A DNA stretch of 45,880 nt from Thermoplasmatota archaeon (lineage in GTDB: Archaea > Thermoplasmatota > E2 > DHVEG-1): contig JAFGML010000018.1 in NCBI GenBank assembly GCA_016927555.1, positions 1 to 45,880 on the forward strand, given 5' to 3'. The notes below the pieces were generated by a model that was not told the DNA's origin, did no database searches, and saw only the letters and a list, made by a program, of their open reading frames with translations. The position numbers and the translations under genes were made by a program. How positions within the stretch are numbered: the stretch's first letter is position 1; the number at the start of each line of letters is the position of its first letter. This document shows positions 11,380-19,472 of the stretch, piece by piece.

Positions 11380-11544
11380 CATTGCCCTGTCAATACAAGA
11401 GGGTAATTAAGTGGTAAACCAAGAAGTATCTTAAAAACTGCTAAACGACAGTCAAGATTCAATTAAGGAGTCAACAGTGATTTTTTCTTGATTTTTTCTA
11501 AAATGGGTTCTATTAAAACATTTTGAGATGTTAAAAATACTTCG

Positions 11545-11742
11545 TTACCATTTCATTGGCATTTTTCTTCGTTCACTATCGTCTTCATTTTGTTCAGTAG
11601 CTGCTTTTGTTTTTTCTAGGTATTTTTCTAAACACGTTGGACAAATAGCAAAAACTTCTAATCCGTTAACACCGGTCGTATTATGTATGGTTATGTCATC
11701 TGCCTGAACAACTTTGCTACATAGATTACAGACATATTTCAT
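11545..11742 (-). CDS. small zinc-ribbon protein
   Basis: This is a 65-residue protein with two CxxC knuckles, CNLC (near residue 5) and CPTC (near residue 34), spaced as in a zinc ribbon, and a charged tail. Nothing identifies its partner. The start is chosen at ATG 11742 because AGGTGA lies just upstream; a GTG at 11751, overlapping the TGA of the RHH gene before it, is the alternative. It probably forms an operon with that regulator. It lies in the AT-rich segment. Confidence 0.55.
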   Translation of the reverse strand: MKYVCNLCSKVVQADDITIHNTTGVNGLEVFAICPTCLEKYLEKTKAATEQNEDDSERRKMPMKW

Positions 11743-11747
11743 ATTAT

Positions 11748-11906
11748 TCACCTTATTTTTGCGTTTAATTTATTATTTTTTATGTAGAAATTCGTCATAT
11801 ACACTATTTGTCTGCTATAGGGTCGCTCTTCGTCTTTGGCAAGTTTTTTGATGAGTGCATTTTCTTCCTTTGTCAAAGAGATGTTCATTCGTATTCTTTT
11901 TTCCAT
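11748..11906 (-). CDS. ribbon-helix-helix transcriptional regulator, copy A
   Basis: This 52-residue protein has the shape of a CopG/Arc-type RHH domain: a short strand RIRMNISLT, helix EENALIKKLAKDEE, a turn with RPYSR, and helix QIVYMTNFYIKN. RHH proteins bind DNA as dimers through the paired strand, here probably at the dyad in its own promoter. Helix residues and DNA are almost identical to the second copy at 15486-15605, so the duplication is recent. The start is ATG 11906 or ATG 11888 (MNISL). Its TATA box and operator-like dyad lie in the divergent promoter module immediately to the right. The stop touches the next zinc-ribbon gene. Confidence 0.7.
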   Translation of the reverse strand: MEKRIRMNISLTKEENALIKKLAKDEERPYSRQIVYMTNFYIKNNKLNAKIR

Positions 11907-11911
11907 TTGAT

Positions 11912-12026
11912 GCACAAACAGGTAATAATTTTGCACACTTATATGCCTTTCTACACAATGATATATACTTGCTATTCCTTATTGCTATCATCCGACTAAT
12001 GTCGGAAAGGGCAGGCGAAATCAATG
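11912..12026. promoter_or_regulatory. bidirectional promoter module, copy A
   Basis: This is the first of three copies of a module (others at 13465 and 15628). From left to right it has: block CACAAAC (11913-11919); an imperfect dyad around GGTAA-N5-TTGCA (11920-11936); a minus-strand TATA box (CTTATATGCC, 11938-11947) for the RHH gene; a plus-strand TATA box GATATATACT (11960-11969); a leader hairpin CCGAC-TAAT-GTCGG (11992-12005); and the ribosome-binding segment before ATG 12024. CACAAAC to ATG is 111 nt, the same as in the other two copies. The dyad sits between the minus-strand TATA box and its expected transcript start, a typical place for a repressor site. Confidence 0.7.
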
Positions 12027-12134
12027 AGTATACCGAGAGAATTTTCAAACGTTGAGAACGAGAGCAATAAAAAGTTTCGAAAACGACATCACACCTATGA
12101 CGAAGATTATTACAAAGCAAGATTTGAGAAATGA
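12024..12134 (+). CDS. 36-residue basic microprotein, copy A
   Basis: ATG 12024 to TGA 12132-12134 encodes 36 residues, starting MSIPREF and with a basic centre KKFRKRHH. Aligned without gaps to the frame at 15740-15862 it shares 11 of 36 positions, including REF near the start, E13, N15, the RKR triplet at 19-21 and a D-x-Y near residue 30. The shared protein sequence, the conserved upstream module and the ribosome-binding segment suggest it is translated. It lies 45 bases before the glycosyltransferase start. A leader-peptide role or a small RNA- or DNA-binding protein are both possible; I have no family match. Confidence 0.45.
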   Translation: MSIPREFSNVENESNKKFRKRHHTYDEDYYKARFEK

Positions 12135-12179
12135 ATTGTCTCTAATGAAATAAGGAATTTTTTAAAAGTGATAAAGGAC

Positions 12180-13373
12180 ATGAAAGTAGCAATGATTGGC
12201 TGGGAATACCCACCGTTTATGGTAGGCGGTTTAGGTACGCATTGTTATGGACTTACTCGAAGTCTTACTCATATGGGTGTGAAGGTAGATTTTTATATGC
12301 CTCAAACGAAACATGGCGCGACGAGTGATAATCGTAATTTGGTAATTAAAGAGGTAGGAGAGACCACAGTTTTTCCGTATGATCGCCCTGAAAGCAATGA
12401 AATTGCTGGTCAGTTTTTTGACGTGGTTGCTCGCTATAATACATTAGTTGTTGCGAAAGTGAAAGGTACGTATAATGTCATTCATTGTCATGATTGGTTG
12501 ACGATACAAGCAAGTATCACGTTAAAGGATCTCTTGGGCGTTCCTCTGGTTCTTACGGTTCATTCAACGGAGTATGACCGAAGTGGCTGGCTTCATCCGA
12601 ATCAATGGTTCATTGATATTGAACGGGGAGGGATGGAAAAAGCTGATAAAATTATCGCGGTGAGCCAATTTACAAAAAGAACGATCATTGAGAAATATGG
12701 GATAAATCCTGATAAGATTACTGTTATTTATAACGCGGTGTATCCGATTTCTGAGGGGAAGAAGCAGAAACTTGTTTTGTTTTTTGGTCGTCTGACCATT
12801 CAGAAGGGTGCGGATGTTTTCCTTCGTGCAGCAAAGAAAGTATCAGAATTTGAACCCGGTGTTCGGTTTGTGGTAGCTGGTGCTGGTGATTTGCTTCCAG
12901 AGTTGATCAAACAGGCTGTTGATCTCGGCATCTCGAATAGGGTTATTTTCACGGATCGTCTCACTGATGATGAAATGAAACATATGTATGGAATTGCGAG
13001 TGTGTATGTGATGCCTTCAGTAAGTGAACCTTTTGGCATCACTGCCTTGGAGGCGATCTCAGCTGGAACTCCTACGATTGCTTCGAAAACCGCAGGCGTC
13101 TGCGAGACATTCCATAACTGTTTAAAGGTTGACTTCTGGGATAGTGACGAGATAGCAAGCAAAATCATATCGTTGCTACGACACGAATCGTTAAGTAAAA
13201 CACTTACTGAAAACGGAAGGCAAGAGATTGAACTTTTTACGTGGGATAACGTTGCAGAAAAAACACTAGATGTTTATAATGGTCTCAATACTGCGAGATT
13301 GAAAAAACAGCTTGAGGAAAGAGAAAGAATTTACGAGTTGAATACCGCCTACTTAAAACATAAAAAGAAATAA
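12180..13373 (+). CDS. GT4 glycosyltransferase (glycogen/starch synthase-like)
   Basis: This 397-residue protein starts MKVAMIGWEYPPFMVGGLG, the N-terminal nucleotide-loop signature of GT4/GT5-type synthases (GGLG near 16-19). The C-terminal Rossmann half has SEPFGITALEA, the E-x7-E donor site of GT4 enzymes. It should use a nucleotide sugar, probably ADP- or UDP-glucose, to extend an alpha-glucan or a surface glycan. ATG 12180 is chosen because family members begin at this methionine; GTG 12168 in frame is the alternative. A GH57 enzyme follows after one more promoter module, a pairing known from archaeal glycogen clusters, which supports alpha-glucan metabolism. The charged C-terminal helix is an extra. 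Confidence 0.88.
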   Translation: MKVAMIGWEYPPFMVGGLGTHCYGLTRSLTHMGVKVDFYMPQTKHGATSDNRNLVIKEVGETTVFPYDRPESNEIAGQFFDVVARYNTLVVAKVKGTYNVIHCHDWLTIQASITLKDLLGVPLVLTVHSTEYDRSGWLHPNQWFIDIERGGMEKADKIIAVSQFTKRTIIEKYGINPDKITVIYNAVYPISEGKKQKLVLFFGRLTIQKGADVFLRAAKKVSEFEPGVRFVVAGAGDLLPELIKQAVDLGISNRVIFTDRLTDDEMKHMYGIASVYVMPSVSEPFGITALEAISAGTPTIASKTAGVCETFHNCLKVDFWDSDEIASKIISLLRHESLSKTLTENGRQEIELFTWDNVAEKTLDVYNGLNTARLKKQLEERERIYELNTAYLKHKKK

Positions 13374-13464
13374 TACAAGTATTTTTACGATGAAAACTTG
13401 TTAAGGTATTTTTCTCCATATTTTATTGAGTGGATGGAAAAAGAGTATTTGCATGAGAGTTTCT

Positions 13465-13579
13465 ACACAAACTTGCAATAATATTACACATTTATATGCC
13501 TTTGTACACAACAATATATACTGCCTACTGCATACTAGTATCATCCGACAAACTTCGGAAAGGACAGGTGAGATCAATG
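13465..13579. promoter_or_regulatory. bidirectional promoter module, copy B (no RHH gene beside it)
   Basis: This is the second copy of the module: CACAAAC (13466-13472), imperfect dyad TTGCAA-N5-TTACAC (13473-13489), TTTATATGCC (13491-13500), ACAATATATACT (about 13510-13521), hairpin CCGA-N6-TCGG (13545-13558), AGGTGAGATC and ATG 13577. The spacing from CACAAAC to ATG is again 111 nt. No regulator is encoded to its left, so the minus-strand promoter half has no recognisable gene. Dyad positions match the other copies, so an RHH protein made from copy A or C could act here. Confidence 0.65.
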
Positions 13580-13669
13580 AAGACCAACGAACGAGTAAAA
13601 CGACCATTGGAAACGCAAACGACTTCAACCTTTGCAATCAGGTCCTTATTTCCAGAGCCCAATACTTAA
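13577..13669 (+). pseudogene. decayed copy B of the microprotein
   Basis: The ATG in module B opens a 30-codon frame ending at TAA 13667-13669, but the encoded peptide does not match copies A and C. At the DNA level, GGAAACGCAAACGACTTCAA (about 13609-13628) aligns with the RKR-encoding part of copy C. In the matching frame it would read KRKRLQ, but that frame hits TAA just upstream. Compared with copy C the distance from ATG to this block is 17 nt shorter, a frame-changing deletion. I read this as a broken copy; a diverged, still translated leader is the alternative. Confidence 0.4.
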
Positions 13670-13719
13670 CGTATACTCTGAAAATGAAAACTAAGGAAAT
13701 GAGATAAACGAAATATCAA

Positions 13720-13750
13720 GGACGAATATATCGTCCAAATCTCTTTTTTT
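13720..13750 (+). promoter_or_regulatory. stem-loop with T-tract ahead of the GH57 unit
   Basis: GGACGA (13720-13725), a 5-nt loop and TCGTCC (13731-13736) form a perfect 6-bp hairpin. It is followed by AAATCTC and seven T (13744-13750), then AGGGGA and ATG 13763. The same arrangement, with a GACGAT/ATCGTC stem, lies before the gene at 15958. It resembles an intrinsic terminator or attenuator between the small frame and the next gene; a regulatory role is inferred from the repeat. Confidence 0.5.
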
Positions 13751-13762
13751 AGGGGAAAAAAT

Positions 13763-13861
13763 ATGGTAAACATTAGTAGATGTATTCACTGTGGACAAGA
13801 ATCCAGAAGCAGAAAAAATCCAGAAGATCAATTAATCAATGCGGATAAGGGGAATACATAA
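13763..13861 (+). CDS. 32-residue CxxC mini-protein
   Basis: ATG 13763 is preceded by AGGGGA and opens a 32-codon frame with one CIHC knuckle near the start and a charged remainder. Its stop TAA overlaps the ATG of the GH57 gene (TAATG at 13859-13863), which suggests translational coupling. The opening ATGGT context and the hairpin before it match the zinc protein gene at 15958. It could be a shortened relative of that protein or only a leader frame. There is no family match. Confidence 0.4.
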   Translation: MVNISRCIHCGQESRSRKNPEDQLINADKGNT

Positions 13862-15048
13862 TGCCATCAATCTGTCTCTATTTCGAAGTACATCAACCAA
13901 TGAGATTAAATCATTTTACGGTTTTCAATATAGGCGCAAACCATGACAGATCTTCTGACTATTTTAATCGTAAACTGAACCAAGAAATTTTTGAAAAAGT
14001 TGCACAAAAATGTTATCTTCCAACAAATAAAATATTGCTTGAGTTAATCAATAAATATGATGGTAAATTTCGGGTTTCATTTAGTTTAACAGGCACATTC
14101 ATTGATTATTGTGAACGGTATATGCCTTCAGTTCTTGATAGTTATAAAGCTCTGTTTGCTACCGGTGCTGTTGACTTCATCGAGGAGACCTATTTTCATT
14201 CACTTTCCAGCTTGTATGACGATCTTGATGAGTTCGAAAAGCAAGTACACATGCATCGTCAGATGATAAAAAGAATATTTAACTATGAACCAAAGATGTT
14301 CAGAAACACAGAAACAATCTATGATAACCGTATAGCCAAAAAAATCGCTGAGTTAGGATACAAAGGAATTATTACTGAAGGAGCAGAGAAGATTTTAGGA
14401 TGGCGTTCACCAAACTTTGTCTACAAACCAGTGAACGCAAACATCAAAGTACTCCTGAGAAATTACAAGCTCAGCGATGATGTCGGGTTTCGGTTTTCTT
14501 CACGAAACTGGCCGGAGTTCCCTCTCACTGCAGAGAAGTACGCGAACTGGATGTCCAACTCCTCTGGCGATGTTATCAACCTGTTCATGGATTACGAAAC
14601 CTTTGGAGAACATCAATGGATAGAAACAGGGATCTTTGAATTCCTCAAACATCTCCCCAGGGAAGCCTTTAAACATGATAACCTTGATTTTGCTACCGTA
14701 ACCGAAGCAGTTGAGCGATATGCACCTGTTGGAGAAATAGATGTCCCCTTAGCGATCTCTTGGGCAGATGAAGATCGGAACGTCTCAACATGGCTTGGAA
14801 ATGATATGCAAATGGCTTGTTTTAATGAACTAAAAAACATCGGGATAAAACTCAAAGAAAAGAGTAATGAGAGGTTACTTAAAACATGGCGTCGTCTTCA
14901 AACATCAGATCATTTGTATTACTGTTCAACAAAAGGTCTTGCTGATGGAGCGGTTCATGCCTATTTTAGCCCGTATGATAATCCTTATGAAGGTTTTATG
15001 AACTATATGAATATCTTACAAGATTTAAAACAGAGAGTAGTGTTGTAG
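13861..15048 (+). CDS. glycoside hydrolase family 57 (alpha-amylase/4-alpha-glucanotransferase type)
   Basis: This 395-residue protein shows the ordered GH57 motifs: HQP (11-13), TGTFID (77-82), FRNTETIY (147-154, nucleophile Glu151) and LFMDYETFGEHQW (241-253, acid/base Asp244). GH57 enzymes hydrolyse, transfer or branch alpha-1,4 glucans; sequence alone does not decide which. The length is close to the shorter cytoplasmic alpha-amylase group, and no signal peptide is seen. It sits downstream of the GT4 gene, so the two probably build and process a storage glucan. Its start overlaps the mini-protein stop. Transcription probably comes from promoter module B. Confidence 0.93.
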   Translation: MPSICLYFEVHQPMRLNHFTVFNIGANHDRSSDYFNRKLNQEIFEKVAQKCYLPTNKILLELINKYDGKFRVSFSLTGTFIDYCERYMPSVLDSYKALFATGAVDFIEETYFHSLSSLYDDLDEFEKQVHMHRQMIKRIFNYEPKMFRNTETIYDNRIAKKIAELGYKGIITEGAEKILGWRSPNFVYKPVNANIKVLLRNYKLSDDVGFRFSSRNWPEFPLTAEKYANWMSNSSGDVINLFMDYETFGEHQWIETGIFEFLKHLPREAFKHDNLDFATVTEAVERYAPVGEIDVPLAISWADEDRNVSTWLGNDMQMACFNELKNIGIKLKEKSNERLLKTWRRLQTSDHLYYCSTKGLADGAVHAYFSPYDNPYEGFMNYMNILQDLKQRVVL

Positions 15049-15084
15049 AGGTTGGTGATTGAAGATTAGAGGAGGTAATGGATA

Positions 15085-15294
15085 ATGCCAAAATGTGAAA
15101 AATGTGGCAAATCCTTTAAAACAAAAAAGGCGCTACATATACACTATACAAAAGCACATAATAAAGGATATGCCTAAATACCTAACTGTGATATTTGTCA
15201 TAAATATTTTATAACAAAAGCACAGATGAAACAACATAGAATAAAAGAGCATACTAAAAAAATTTCTGGTACTAAATTTCGAATCCCGAAATAG
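15085..15294 (+). pseudogene. two-finger C2H2 zinc protein interrupted by an in-frame TAA
   Basis: ATG 15085, after a strong AGGAGG at 15070-15075, encodes a C2H2 finger (CEKC near 4-7, then H-x-H/H about 12 residues on). It stops at TAA 15175-15177 after 30 codons. The same frame then continues for 38 codons with a second clean C2H2 finger (CDIC ... HRIKEH) to TAG 15292-15294. Two fingers in one frame separated by one stop indicate a nonsense mutation in a 69-residue protein. The first finger may still be made alone. TAA excludes pyrrolysine readthrough. Confidence 0.6.
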
Positions 15295-15375
15295 AATTTT
15301 GATGTATGCACCATCAACCATTGGCACAAAATAGAGGGAGTGGTAAACATTAAGAAGTATAGCAATATTAAAATA

Positions 15376-15400
15376 AAATCAGTGTAAAAACCTGATTTTT
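15376..15400 (+). terminator. intrinsic-type terminator
   Basis: AAATCAG (15376-15382) pairs with CTGATTT (15392-15398) around a 9-nt A-rich loop, with the stem running straight into a T-tract and a T-rich tail (to about 15415). It lies after the zinc-finger frame and before the minus-strand RHH gene, so it would end transcripts of the GH57 unit. Confidence 0.6.
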
Positions 15401-15485
15401 TTCATTCTTTTTTCTCATTTCTTCCGCTCGTGTACTTCTCACCCTATCACCCCAATATATTTCGTCCCTTTTGTCCATTTCTTCT

Positions 15486-15605
15486 TCACTTATTTTCTAT
15501 GTAGAATTTCGTCATATACACTATTTGTCTGCTATAGGGTCGCTCTTCTTCTTTCGCAAGTTTTTTGATGAGTGCATTTTCTTCCTTTGTCAAAGAGATA
15601 TTCAT
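15486..15605 (-). CDS. ribbon-helix-helix transcriptional regulator, copy C
   Basis: This 39-residue minimal RHH protein runs from MNISLTKEEN to FYIENK. It differs from copy A by only a few residues over the shared part, and the DNA is nearly identical through the coding region, whereas the promoter module is less alike. ATG 15605 is preceded by GGGGAG at a proper distance. A GTG four codons earlier is possible. The protein is shorter than copy A at the C-terminus. The perfect dyad 31 bases upstream of its start is the best candidate for its own operator. Confidence 0.65.
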   Translation of the reverse strand: MNISLTKEENALIKKLAKEEERPYSRQIVYMTKFYIENK

Positions 15606-15627
15606 TCGTATCCCCACTCCCCTGTTT

Positions 15628-15742
15628 ACACAAACATGTAATATTGTTACATATTTATATGCCTTTATACGCAATGATATATACTACCTCCGGCATACTC
15701 CTCTTATCCGACACACTCAGGAGAGAACAGGTGGGATCAATG
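15628..15742. promoter_or_regulatory. bidirectional promoter module, copy C, with perfect dyad operator
   Basis: This is the third copy of the module. CACAAAC (15629-15635) is followed by the perfect dyad ATGTAA-TATTG-TTACAT (15636-15652), the minus-strand TATA box (TTTATATGCC, 15654-15663), a plus-strand GATATATACT (about 15677-15686), a partly lost leader hairpin, AGGTGGGATC, and ATG 15740. CACAAAC to ATG is 111 nt as in A and B. The dyad consensus over the three copies is roughly GnAA-N5-TTrCA. Confidence 0.72.
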
Positions 15743-15862
15743 ATACTAGACAGAGAATTTATCCACATCGATAAAGAAATGAACTTAAGGAATCGAAAAC
15801 GACTCCAAGCATTCAAAACAGATGACTACAGAAGAGTAATATTTACACAGTGCATGGATTAG
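15740..15862 (+). CDS. 40-residue basic microprotein, copy C
   Basis: ATG 15740 to TAG 15860-15862 encodes 40 residues with DREF near the start and NRKRLQ in the middle. It is a homologue of the frame at 12024 (11 of 36 positions identical without gaps). AGGTG lies 7-9 bases upstream of the ATG. A stem-loop with T-tract and then the zinc protein gene follow, so this frame is the first cistron of that transcript. Function is unknown. Confidence 0.45.
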   Translation: MILDREFIHIDKEMNLRNRKRLQAFKTDDYRRVIFTQCMD

Positions 15863-15913
15863 TTTCGCAGATAACGCTGGAAACTAAAAACGTATGATAC
15901 ATGAACTAGGAAA

Positions 15914-15950
15914 GACGATCCTATCGTCAAAACCTCTTTTTAAGGAGGAG
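15914..15950 (+). promoter_or_regulatory. stem-loop with T-tract ahead of the zinc protein gene
   Basis: GACGAT (15914-15919), loop CCT and ATCGTC (15923-15928) form a perfect 6-bp hairpin. CCTCTTTTT and then AAGGAGGAG (15942-15950) follow. The CCTC can pair with the GGAG of the ribosome-binding site, so two alternative folds are possible. It has the same layout as the element at 13720-13750. Confidence 0.5.
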
Positions 15951-15957
15951 AAATACT

Positions 15958-16239
15958 ATGGTAGATTGTGAAGAATGTGATAAGAAATTAGGTATTCTAG
16001 AAGGGTATCGTCATCCTGCATTAGGAACAAGATTTTTAGTATGCGGGAAATGTTACGATAAAATTGAAGGAGATATGGAAAGATGGAGAATGTATTGTCT
16101 TTCAGATTCATTCAACGCAGAATCATCCATAATTGACATCCAAACAGCATGGGATAAAAATATATCAAATGACCCTCTGTTACAAAAATGGTTTAACACT
16201 CTGTGGATGAAAATAGGATCTCAGCCGTGCAGAGAATAA
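15958..16239 (+). CDS. small protein with paired CxxC knuckles
   Basis: This 93-residue protein has CEEC (4-7) and CGKC (about 31-34), a likely zinc ribbon, followed by a mostly helical, tryptophan-containing tail. AAGGAGGAG just upstream gives a strong start at ATG 15958. I do not recognise the family. It is the main gene downstream of promoter module C and its microprotein, as the GH57 unit is for module B, and may belong to the same regulon. Confidence 0.6.
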   Translation: MVDCEECDKKLGILEGYRHPALGTRFLVCGKCYDKIEGDMERWRMYCLSDSFNAESSIIDIQTAWDKNISNDPLLQKWFNTLWMKIGSQPCRE

Positions 16240-16662
16240 GACATAAAAACCCTCATTTCTATTTTTTTTTTGTTACACACCCCATACTCGTTTCCATCAG
16301 GAAAATCGTCTTATATACCCATAAATCAATTCTGTATTTTACCCTGCGTGAAAACTAACGGTAGTAGAGCTTGAATCTTCTCTGCGGAAGGTATCCTTCA
16401 ACCCTCATGCACTATACTAAAATTCACCTCCTTAAAGTTACTGATAAAAAATACTATGAATAGTCATCTCTGGTCCATACTACGAATGACAACATAGGCC
16501 ACAGCAGCTAGATAACTATTTAAGCTAGGTGGGCATTATACTTCATAGAAAGAAAGAGAAAAAAGATTTTCACATTTTCGTTTTTTACGAACTTTTGGAT
16601 TTTTTTTATTTTCGTTCTTTTAAACAGTCCAGATATAAGAATCTGAGGCGGTGATAACGAAT
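16240..16662. promoter_or_regulatory. intergenic stretch with cold-shock promoter and T-rich leader
   Basis: The first part has a T-run (about 16262-16270) after the zinc protein gene that may end its transcript, and a TATA-like CTTATATACC near 16310-16319 with no gene behind it. TATTTAAG near 16518-16525 is the best TATA box for the cold-shock gene, giving a leader of about 115 nt. In that leader ACGAA (16587-16591) can pair with TTCGT upstream (16577-16581) or with TTCGT downstream (16611-16615). GAGG (16645-16648) and GGTGA (16650-16654) lie before ATG 16663. Confidence 0.5.
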
Positions 16663-16851
16663 ATGAAAGGAACAGTAAAATGGTACAATGATATGAAAGG
16701 ATTTGGCTTCATAGCCGGTGAAGATGGAAAAGAGACCTTTGTCCACAGAACATCGATACCTATGGGAGTTCATCTCTGTGAAGGAGACCAAGTTGAATAT
16801 CTTGTTGAAGACTCAGAACGAGGACAAAGAGCAACAAATGTAAAGAAGTAA
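16663..16851 (+). CDS. cold-shock domain protein (CspA family)
   Basis: This 62-residue protein is a single cold-shock OB-fold: MKGTVKWYN, RNP1-like KGFGFIA (12-18) and RNP2-like TFVH, ending in the usual ATNVKK. It binds single-stranded RNA or DNA and loosens RNA structure at low temperature. ATG 16663 is preferred over the in-frame GTG at 16651 because family members begin MKGTVKW. A long T-rich leader precedes it, as for many cold-shock genes. Cold-shock proteins are patchily distributed in archaea and often acquired laterally; its place in the AT-rich segment fits that. Confidence 0.93.
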   Translation: MKGTVKWYNDMKGFGFIAGEDGKETFVHRTSIPMGVHLCEGDQVEYLVEDSERGQRATNVKK

Positions 16852-16999
16852 AAAAAAAAAAAACACGTAATTGAATAATGTGCTTCTTGAAACTAGATAT
16901 ACTTTGATGCAATAGATAGTATAGCAAGCATCACTAGCTTCTTTTAACGCATTATTTAGTTAAGTGAAAAATAGTTATTTTAATTGGAGGTGATACACA

Positions 17000-17146
17000 A
17001 TGAATGATATAACTCAGAAACTTCAACAATTAACAAAATCTAGAGGGAATCCAAAATTGATCTATAAGCAATCAAATAAAAAGCCAGCTAGCGTATTTGT
17101 TGATGATTTATCAGTCAAACAGAAACCTGAAGAGCAACACAGGTAA
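17000..17146 (+). CDS. 48-residue hypothetical protein
   Basis: ATG 17000 follows a near-perfect ribosome-binding site GGAGGTGAT (16986-16994). The frame encodes 48 mostly polar residues (MNDITQKLQQLTKSRGN near the start, FVDDLS later) and ends at TAA 17144-17146. No motif is recognised. The strong site and the hairpin downstream (17192-17219) support a real short transcript. It stands alone between the cold-shock gene and the radical SAM gene. Confidence 0.5.
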   Translation: MNDITQKLQQLTKSRGNPKLIYKQSNKKPASVFVDDLSVKQKPEEQHR

Positions 17147-17759
17147 CAAGTTGATTCTCTTTACTTGGCAAGGTCATAATTGGTGGGTGACTCTCTTTTC
17201 TTTATTTCACTAAAAGAGAAGCCCATCTTTCTGATTTTTTTTATTGCCATAAATGATTAAAAAACCATATGCTTTGAATAATGTTTTTTCTGCTGTTGCT
17301 TCCTCTACATTGTAGTAAAAAAAGGTATGCCACTGAGAGGGTATCGACCTAGAGTGATATCCTCAGAGAAGAAAAACAGGTAGAATTATGCGTTATTATA
17401 TTGAAATCTTCTTCAGGTAAATAAAAAAAATGTATGGGACGTGAAATAGACCTCAGGTTCAAATCATGTAAAACAAATTGAACTTACGAGTCTAAAAATA
17501 CGTTTATGCTTTTCTCGAGATTCGGTTGTTATTTGGAGCATGTTAGGTATGTTTTTATTGCAAAGTGGAGAAGGGAAAGTAAATTGATATAAATAGTGAG
17601 TTTTCTATCATGATTTCTAACGATGAGCTTTTTGTAGTAGTATATATTTTTTAAAATGAAAAAAAAAAGTTGATATGAATCAGCACCAATAAGCCAGTTT
17701 ACTTCATAGGTGAAATACTCGCTGGTATTCAAACCTGAGAGAATGTCACGGTATTAATC
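17147..17759. other. gene-poor AT-rich stretch
   Basis: I see no convincing gene here. The left end has a hairpin and T-tract (17192-17245). The remainder is low in G+C with scattered A- and T-runs. A 67-codon minus-strand frame (17529-17732) has no ribosome-binding site and a biased, T-run-derived composition, so I do not call it. Confidence 0.5.
17192..17245 (+). terminator. hairpin followed by T-tract
   Basis: TCTCTTTT (17192-17199) pairs perfectly with AAAAGAGA (17212-17219) around a 12-nt loop. A run of eight T follows about 13 bases further on. It lies about 45 bases after the stop of the 48-residue frame and is a plausible transcript end. Confidence 0.35.
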
Positions 17760-19022
17760 TCATTGTTTTTTTCCAAAATAAAGAGTGTCATTTACTATGA
17801 ACGTTTTATATCCTGAGTTATTTAGGTATTTCTGAGCAGAACTCATTCTTTTAAATATTTCTTTGTTTGATACCTGTGGTTCGATACTTCCTGCTTCAGT
17901 ATCGGTTTTAATTGACATTACCATGATTATACCTAAGTCAAGACATGTTTCTTTAATAAAATCCAAAGTCTCTTTGAATTCCTGATTGGTTTCAGAAGGA
18001 AAACCTACAATGCAATGTGTTGCAAGAGCAAGACCTGAATTTGCTTTTTTTAATCTAATAAAAGCAGATTTTATTTCTCTCACATCTGAATACCGATTCA
18101 TATGCGTAAGGATTCTAGTATTCCCCGATTGAACAGGGATACATGTTGCCTTAATTTTTCCTTTTTTTACGATCTCTTCAAGTTCATCAACGTATTTTAC
18201 CACCCACCTAGGGTTTAACGCATAAATATTAATCCGATACTCTCCATCTATGTTTGTCATCTTCTCAAGCAAATCGGGAAAATTGCTATTGATATCTAAC
18301 CCGTAGCATCCTGTATCTTCAGCTGTCAGAAAAAAATTCGAATATCCTTTTTCTAAACCATTTTTAAATTCATTTAAGCAACTATGTAGAGGTTTGCTTT
18401 TAAAATCGCCAACTGCTTTTTTAATCCCACAATATGAACAATTCTGCCAGCAACCTGATGCAATTCTAATAATATACAGATCATCAATAGGAAGATTCAA
18501 TCCATAAAAACTATGTAAAATCAAATGATTTTCTCCAATTTTATTTTTAAACACCTGATCGAAAAAACCTACATACGCTCGTTTTGTCAAATCAAATTTT
18601 AAAAATAATAGTTTAAAAAGATCACTGATTTTATCTCTGTTGAAATTATTCCAAAGAGAATTACTATCTTCAATTTCAGAGAAACTGACTTTAGTTTTAG
18701 GGAAATACTTTTCAATTTCATCAATATGTTTTGTACTGAAAGATCTGCCATTGAAAAAATGGTCAAATCGTTTTTTATCCGTATCTGGTAAACAACCAGT
18801 TACAATAACCTCTCTATCATAGTTATTGAATTTCTTTATCTTTTTAAAGTATATATCCGCAAGAGAATTTCCAAAACCGCAAGTAATAATTAAAATGACA
18901 TCTGCTTTTTTCGGACTATCTACAATCTCATAATCATTTCTAATTAAATATTTCGAAATTCGAATCGTATCTAATTTTCTTCGATCACAAAGAAGTTCCG
19001 CGTCAATAAATACTTTCTTCAT
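17760..19022 (-). CDS. radical SAM protein related to MiaB/RimO methylthiotransferases, lacking a TRAM domain
   Basis: This 420-residue protein has an N-terminal UPF0004-like half with the three cluster cysteines in order (Cys12, Cys48 in ITCGFGN, Cys77 in VTGCLPD). The radical SAM CxxxCxxC follows in SGCWQNCSYCG (Cys191, 195, 198), then TAEDTGCYG, and IPVQSGN and VGFPSET further on. Methylthiotransferases use two 4Fe-4S clusters to add a methylthio group to tRNA or a protein. The usual C-terminal TRAM RNA-binding domain is absent: the protein ends soon after the radical SAM barrel. The spacer between the halves is longer than usual. Codon use is very AT-rich. A perfect inverted repeat overlaps the promoter. 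ATG 19022 may be nearly leaderless. Confidence 0.8.
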   Translation of the reverse strand: MKKVFIDAELLCDRRKLDTIRISKYLIRNDYEIVDSPKKADVILIITCGFGNSLADIYFKKIKKFNNYDREVIVTGCLPDTDKKRFDHFFNGRSFSTKHIDEIEKYFPKTKVSFSEIEDSNSLWNNFNRDKISDLFKLLFLKFDLTKRAYVGFFDQVFKNKIGENHLILHSFYGLNLPIDDLYIIRIASGCWQNCSYCGIKKAVGDFKSKPLHSCLNEFKNGLEKGYSNFFLTAEDTGCYGLDINSNFPDLLEKMTNIDGEYRINIYALNPRWVVKYVDELEEIVKKGKIKATCIPVQSGNTRILTHMNRYSDVREIKSAFIRLKKANSGLALATHCIVGFPSETNQEFKETLDFIKETCLDLGIIMVMSIKTDTEAGSIEPQVSNKEIFKRMSSAQKYLNNSGYKTFIVNDTLYFGKKQ

Positions 19023-19399
19023 CCTTAATTCCTATATATTACTTATATGGAAAACAAAAATTTATTGTTATTATTGTTTTCCACTATAGTCCTATTAAAT
19101 AAAAGGAGATTTTTGTTTAAATACCTTGGTAAAACTAGAATGTATCAGTCAAGAATTGGCTTTCTAAGGATAGGTTTTTAGGTTCAGGAGCGGGATTTAA
19201 ACCTGTAGTAATAGTGCCTCTGTAGGGAATGTAGGCCTAGAGTAAAATACTGGCACAGGAAAATCCTTTTTGTTTATTATAATATGAGAAAATTTTCAAA
19301 AATCGTATATAAAAAAAGGCAAGTTTTTAACTCAAGGTAATAGAGCCGAAAGTCGGTATCCAATTTTTAACATTTTAACAGAAGAAAAAATGGAAAAAG
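19023..19399. other. AT-rich gap between the radical SAM gene and tRNA-Phe
   Basis: The left end holds the radical SAM promoter and a dyad (19048-19083). Near 19304-19312 GTATATAAA forms a plus-strand TATA-like box with no recognised gene behind it. I found no integrase and no direct repeat of the tRNA 3' end here or near 11.4 kb by eye. Confidence 0.45.
19048..19083. promoter_or_regulatory. 10-bp perfect inverted repeat at the radical SAM promoter
   Basis: TGGAAAACAA (19048-19057) and TTGTTTTCCA (19074-19083) form a perfect dyad with a 16-nt AT spacer. On the minus strand the inner arm runs into CATATAAGT, the likely TATA box of the gene starting at 19022. The dyad therefore covers the upstream promoter region and could be an operator. 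Confidence 0.5.
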
Positions 19400-19472
19400 T
19401 GCCGCAGGAGGGGATCGAACCCTCGACATCACGGTCTTCAGCCGTGCACTCTCCCAGCTGAGTTACCGCGGC
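19400..19472 (-). tRNA. tRNA-Phe (GAA)
   Basis: Read on the minus strand, this folds as a complete cloverleaf: acceptor 5' GCCGCGG with a 3' CTGCGGC (one G-U pair), D-arm with CTCAGCTGGGAGAG, anticodon stem ACGGC/GCCGT with loop CTGAAGA (anticodon GAA), and T-arm with GGTTCGATCC. The discriminator base is A. CCA is not encoded. There is no intron. Its 3' end faces the AT-rich segment. Confidence 0.97.

Follow-up and report, generated by a model that had tools for sequence, protein, structure and literature searches.

What is the role of a short intergenic segment that stands three times in one archaeal locus, each time before a different operon? We addressed this question in contig JAFGML010000018.1 (assembly GCA_016927555.1) of a Thermoplasmatota archaeon, of which positions 1 to 45,880 were analysed and are hereafter called the window. 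An earlier interpretation made from the letters of the window (hereafter the sequence-only reading) had described three copies of one regulatory module, associated with genes for ribbon-helix-helix (RHH) regulators. The three copies do belong to one family of 117-nucleotide (nt) segments, M1 (11911-12027), M2 (13464-13580) and M3 (15627-15743), which are 79-81% identical to the reference copy, and a degenerate pattern of their core matches the window three times, only at the modules, versus 0 matches in 100 shuffles. The constant distance of 111 nt from a CACAAAC block to the start codon of a small frame is also borne out by the coordinates, CACAAAC starting at 11913, 13466 and 15629 and the ATG at 12024, 13577 and 15740. 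M1 and M3 have an RHH frame on their left, on the opposite strand; M2 follows the stop codon of a GT4 gene, precedes a GH57 gene and has no RHH frame on its left. Gene order in the window thus agrees with the description of modules leading into a GT4 gene, a GH57 gene and a zinc protein, one of them without a regulator. The modules were scored with R1, a sequence model of 122 positions built from 23 modules.

11911-12023, plus strand: module M1 (type A), with candidate operator repeats, divergent promoters and 5' leader; 100.7 bits with model R1
13464-13576, plus strand: module M2 (type B), in the GT4-GH57 interval, without an RHH gene on its left; 117-nt family, model R1
15627-15739, plus strand: module M3 (type A); 117-nt family, model R1

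Based on sequence comparisons, we consider it probable that an RHH protein and a portable promoter-leader cassette make up a self-repressing switch at this locus. The leftward promoter would drive expression of an RHH protein of 52 amino acids (aa) acting as dimers. These dimers would bind three TACACA repeats, which lie on one helical face and flank both TATA elements, and would block access of TBP/TFB to both promoters, shutting off their own gene as well as the operon on the right. A signal lowering or inactivating the repressor would then allow expression on both sides, the rightward transcript comprising a short leader, a ribosome-binding site, usually a small open reading frame (ORF) and then a cargo gene. 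The outcome would be a self-limiting switch for the cargo and for the leftward operon, which consists of the RHH gene and a second gene named ZnL. Since the cassette is duplicated within the locus, the GT4, GH57 and zinc protein operons would all three come under the control of a single RHH family.

This model is supported by the anatomy of the module, in which the best-kept parts are the three TACACA repeats, 21 and 20 base pairs (bp) apart, and two divergent TATA elements. These parts reach 1.7-1.9 bits per column in the aligned modules versus 1.0 in the spacer before the leader. In M1 they are placed as follows, BRE standing for B recognition element.

11911-11916, plus strand: candidate operator repeat 1, TGCACA (consensus TACACA), from the module alignment
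11932-11937, plus strand: candidate operator repeat 2, TGCACA, 21 bp from repeat 1, from the module alignment
11939-11950, minus strand: BRE and TATA of the leftward (RHH) promoter, minus-strand AAAGGCATATAA, 1.69 bits per column
11952-11957, plus strand: candidate operator repeat 3, TACACA, 20 bp from repeat 2 and between the TATA elements, from the alignment
11960-11968, plus strand: TATA of the rightward promoter, GATATATAC, 1.89 bits per column, the maximum of the module
11991-12006, plus strand: leader dyad TCCGACTAATGTCGGA near the expected transcript start, with modest pair counts

The back-to-back TATA boxes of the sequence-only reading are therefore retained as two divergent elements, with one correction: TTATATGCCTTT is best read on the minus strand as AAAGGCATATAA, which was assigned to the leftward promoter by the archaeal promoter consensus. 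A sigma-70 promoter scan, which is not applicable here, remained at chance level in the window. The dyad claimed for each module fares less well. TCCGAC..GTCGGA is present in the 5' leader, but the M2 fold equals that of shuffles and covariation is slight, and we set this dyad aside as an unproven RNA element. Rfam recognizes two tRNAs only in the window; consequently, the leader belongs to no described RNA family.

The three hexamers, at 21 and 20 bp, are retained with few changes in 23 modules, and direct measurement found the 111-nt spacing to be exact in 18 of the 23 modules first aligned, the others mostly differing in the first repeat or by an insertion or deletion within the leader. In 14 of 16 genome pairs, the modules are more alike than the fourfold-degenerate sites of the linked genes. 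A search for the operator core across nine genomes of the genus gave 14 sites, all in modules, versus 0 matches for the reversed control, so that the predicted regulon is limited to the modules at that stringency. The locus has the layout of a divergent unit, with a regulator gene divergent from its target, a shared intergenic promoter region and a conserved, repeated candidate operator at both promoters. In most type-A modules the RHH gene starts 3-5 nt left of the first repeat.

How far does the module extend beyond the window, and does the regulator accompany it? The sequence-only reading had staked its case on conservation in related genomes, and the search that it proposed finds the module conserved outside the window. 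Model R1 detects 26 strong modules in 16 of 45 genomes of the family, with 1-3 per genome. Using both the 117-nt query and model R1, modules were found solely in the window's own family (Thermoplasmatota), and the 117-nt DNA query found no module in 24 genomes of other families in the same order and class. Weak R1 matches in genomes G062 and G063 were inspected and judged not to be modules. Among 35 family genomes searched for both, modules and RHH orthologs are found in one and the same set of 14, namely the window's own genome, 12 others with orthologs 74-92% identical, and G033 with a broken copy; given the incompleteness of metagenome-assembled genomes and shared descent, the events behind this agreement are not independent. 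These comparative data support the earlier idea of a small, local regulon that belongs to a single RHH family and has spread through duplication, and for which binding of the repressor is predicted.

The RHH gene is also borne by named relatives, among them the Thermoplasmatales archaea SG8-52-3 and SM1-50, both placed in Thermoprofundales (Marine Benthic Group D, MBG-D) by a 2018 study (PMC6461988). A literature search covering few subscription journals retrieved no report of the cassette or of RHH regulons in Thermoprofundales. For this lineage of sediment archaea, which is uncultured and very common, operator, repressor and targets are thereby predicted in a form open to in vitro tests.

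The leftward operon contains the candidate repressor itself.

11748-11906, minus strand: RHH regulator copy 1, 52 aa, intact; ORF, orthologs and a weak RHH_5 match in Pfam
11545-11742, minus strand: ZnL, 65 aa, zinc-ribbon-like, second gene of the leftward RHH operon; ORF and CxxC pairs
15486-15617 (about), minus strand: RHH copy 2, with altered start (GTG at 15617 or an internal ATG); ORF and comparison with copy 1

The two RHH genes had been described as nearly identical. They are 96% alike over 122 nt, but the M3-side copy has lost the usual ATG; consequently, its start must be the GTG or an internal ATG, and this copy may be weakened. The near-identical RHH copies flank more diverged modules, which suggests recent duplication or gene conversion. 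RHH paralogs, 47-52% identical to the module RHH, match RHH_5/RHH_1 in Pfam, one of them at 27.1 bits, above the gathering cut-off of 26 bits. A PDB sequence search with the RHH profile matched no chain. According to the gene maps, ZnL homologs stand directly behind the RHH gene in most module loci, making ZnL a candidate partner; its zinc-ribbon matches in Pfam are all sub-threshold.

An operon in which a second small gene follows a small RHH gene also recalls a toxin-antitoxin module, with the divergent genes as mere passengers, and the patchy distribution as well as the broken copies in two genomes would suit this explanation. We nevertheless hold it highly improbable, as the RHH proteins (48-54 aa) are devoid of a long C-terminal extension for toxin binding, the zinc-ribbon-like ZnL matches no toxin family in Pfam, the best-conserved element is the rightward TATA, and additional copies of the module occur without RHH-ZnL.

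Several observations weigh against the self-repressing switch. The best Pfam match of the module RHH, to RHH_5, has an E value of 0.017, below the cut-off, which is weak direct support. The AlphaFold model, of the monomer only, has helices at residues 13-25 and 32-51 with a pLDDT (predicted local distance difference test) of 74, and a fold search of the PDB with it ranked histone folds at the top, Arc appearing only with an E value of 4. Excess conservation of the module is lacking in two of the 16 genome pairs. Of Markov sequences of consensus composition, 3.5% contain an equally good three-fold repeat (P ~0.035); by itself the repeat is modest evidence, and it counts for more that nearly all copies have retained it. 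Finally, the module persists in two genomes in which the adjacent RHH gene is broken, G067 (L089:1631-1780, in-frame TAG) and G033 (L054:8037-8161, frameshift). With the adjacent RHH broken, the switch should be derepressed there or served by another RHH. Another regulator may act in these genomes, or the loss of RHH may be recent.

On the right of each module, the leader runs into one of three types of small ORF.

12024-12134, plus strand: microprotein A1, 36 aa; ratio of nonsynonymous to synonymous changes (pN/pS), location right of modules
13577-13669, plus strand: microprotein B, 30 aa; pN/pS; ATG lost in G010
15740-15862, plus strand: microprotein A2, 40 aa; A1/A2 profile, E 4.9e-22

The types follow their place, A1 being found before GT4, B before GH57, and A2 before the zinc protein, GT4, a GyrI-like gene or a thermosome gene. 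Matches of the A1/A2 profile are located almost only right of modules, and an A2 counterpart 78% identical stands beside the second module of G008. Coding is supported for A1, with 0 frameshifts in 6 aligned copies and a pN/pS of 0.52 vs 0.80 and 1.01 in the other frames. The ratio does not settle A2 (0.64 vs 1.26 and 0.66) and B (0.58 vs 1.69 and 0.55, the latter in the +2 frame). In G026 and G061, the leader is fused directly to a PRC-barrel-like gene and a cold-shock gene, respectively. These leaders lack a small ORF, which is consequently not obligatory. Judging from these comparisons, the small ORF appears to be mildly constrained yet dispensable. Two A2 relatives were found in other settings. 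One (L105:10959-11267) is a diverged A2 adjoining a zinc-ribbon gene, without RHH or module and about 4 kb from a module, and is probably the remnant of another copy. The other (L045:6786-6926) has only the ribosome-binding part of the leader and lies behind the zinc protein in the same operon.

Could the unit act at the RNA level instead? Hairpins behind the small ORFs bear on this question.

13701-13750, plus strand: hairpin GAGAT/ATCTC plus GGACGA/TCGTCC, then seven T, before the next gene; fold z -3.78
15914-15948, plus strand: hairpin GACGAT..ATCGTC, then CCTC..GGAGG; fold in the window equal to shuffles, counterpart in G008 at z -2.79

In B copies and in most A2 copies, the motif GAGAT..GGACGATTATATCGTCC..ATCTC with its run of T occupies the interval from the small ORF to the next gene's ribosome-binding site; it is absent in the A1 copies before GT4. 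None of 200 shuffles is as stable as the M2 hairpin; other copies range from z -3.59 (G004) to +0.56. A terminator scan detects the M2 hairpin, with an overall count at chance, and in form the hairpin/U-tract resembles a terminator or attenuator. Leader, small ORF and hairpin/U-tract could thus constitute an attenuator or a translational switch, with RHH a mere neighbour having its own promoter. The stability of the M2 and G004 hairpins and some two-sided changes speak for such a unit, as does the alternative CCTC/GGAGG pairing at M3, which might mask the ribosome-binding site ahead of the zinc protein. Yet there is little covariation (two-sided changes at 3 pairs, a number reached by 68 of 500 shuffles), the A1 copies have no hairpin, the best-conserved columns lie upstream of the expected transcript start, and the G026 and G061 leaders are joined to normal genes. 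We therefore regard control by RNA in place of RHH as unlikely. The literature search mentioned above, with its limited coverage of subscription journals, yielded no report of leader-peptide attenuation in archaea, and attenuation of this kind would be unusual there.

The self-repressing switch would act on a varied set of cargo genes.

12180-13373, plus strand: GT4 glycosyltransferase, glycogen-synthase-like, second copy in the genome; Pfam PF00534/PF13439/PF08323
13763-13861, plus strand: 32-aa frame, likely the remnant of a C2H2-type mini zinc-finger gene, from by-eye comparison with L044, which has a longer CxxC..H..H frame at this place
13861-15048, plus strand: GH57 glycoside hydrolase, second copy in the genome; Pfam PF03065, E 3.9e-80
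15958-16239, plus strand: 93-aa zinc protein (CxxC..CxxC), cargo of M3, with homologs behind modules in G003, G008, G012 and G033

The core GH57 gene of the same genome (G000:C45:17220-18395) is 78% identical to the module-linked one and adjoins a core GT4 gene (69% identical), without a module. A GH57 gene is present in 42 of 45 family genomes, and the one linked to a module comes on top of the core copy. Since the linked GT4-GH57 genes are a second copy of a core pair of glycogen/alpha-glucan type, the switch is likely to supply additional, conditional alpha-glucan metabolism. G061 has two thermosomes, one of them module-linked, versus a single one in each of three other genomes examined; of its three cold-shock proteins, the module-linked one scores lowest. 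Gene maps place RHH, mostly followed by ZnL, on the left of modules, and GT4, GH57, zinc protein, thermosome, cold-shock, PRC-barrel-like or GyrI-like genes on the right. The sequence-only reading had overlooked ZnL, the second-copy status of the cargo, its variation among genomes and the hairpin/U-tract behind some small ORFs. The RHH-side module of G008 reads as type A over roughly its first 100 positions and as type B beginning at the start codon, and no GT4 is present there; recombination between A and B modules thus removed the A1-GT4 segment. Copying of the cassette, with loss or exchange of cargo by recombination, offers a possible route to conditional control of duplicated core genes, and three microprotein types and two small zinc proteins are linked to this one switch. 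A second GT4-GH57 pair in G031 (L135:4852-7397) has no detectable module and a different sequence between its genes; this duplication may be older than the arrival of the module, or the module may have been lost.

More speculatively, the cassette may have two layers, an RHH-controlled divergent promoter and a leader with a dedicated microprotein and an RNA switch (hairpin/U-tract versus a stem covering the ribosome site), and recombination between copies would swap cargo, making housekeeping duplicates (glycogen-type enzymes, thermosome, cold-shock protein) conditional isoforms. We advance this fuller version tentatively and consider it rather doubtful.

The modules lie in a low-GC island (11400-19400, 33-38% vs about 50%) that ends near a tRNA-Phe gene (19399-19472) and also holds a cold-shock gene (16663-16851) and a gene for a radical-SAM/UPF0004 protein (17760-19022). 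At 15085-15292 on the plus strand, a two-finger C2H2 frame has an in-frame TAA after its first finger (MPKCEKCGKSF...GYA, stop, IPNCDICHKYF...). Low GC content in a 50% GC genome, also seen at third codon positions (GC3 of 0.35 for the module-linked GH57 vs 0.66 for the core GH57), the nearby tRNA-Phe and the patchy distribution could mean that the module belongs to a mobile or viral element, as its end or its promoter, and that the module's repetition reflects copies of that element rather than regulation. We judge this very unlikely given that the viral contigs searched contain no RHH relative and no core sequence, no integrase or transposase was recognized among the genes examined, the flanking SULF-BPL genes are identical in kind in the window, G001 and G008, and the best-conserved parts are promoter elements.

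How does the predicted switch compare with known systems? Bacterial RHH autorepressors of the CopG/Arc/omega type have a beta-alpha-alpha fold and repeated operators at their own promoter. The same fold is expected for the module RHH, although those proteins act at bacterial promoters and their sequence relation to the module RHH runs only via the paralogs matching RHH_5/RHH_1. RHH regulators bind repeated operators cooperatively (PMC5569661). Among archaeal viral repressors, F55 of Sulfolobus spindle-shaped virus SSV1 is likewise a tiny RHH protein; it binds tandem direct repeats that overlap promoter elements, is described as blocking TBP/TFB, the mode of action predicted here, and represses, besides its own promoter, a few others (PMC5569661). 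Compared by description, F55 differs in being viral and in its repeat (ATAGATAG), and no duplicated divergent cassette or small-ORF leader is described for it. SvtR and AvtR are also small archaeal RHH regulators, but from viral genomes and with inverted-repeat operators; SvtR represses its own promoter, binds a few targets and is proposed to block TBP/TFB (PMC5569661). In Halobacterium, the gene of the small zinc-finger regulator Brz lies directly upstream of its target bop, an arrangement similar to that of the small zinc protein genes found here, while no RHH protein or duplicated promoter cassette is described for it (PMC2253796). An autoregulated divergent RHH unit is consequently of a known kind; what is new is a duplicated, cargo-exchanging cassette with small ORFs.

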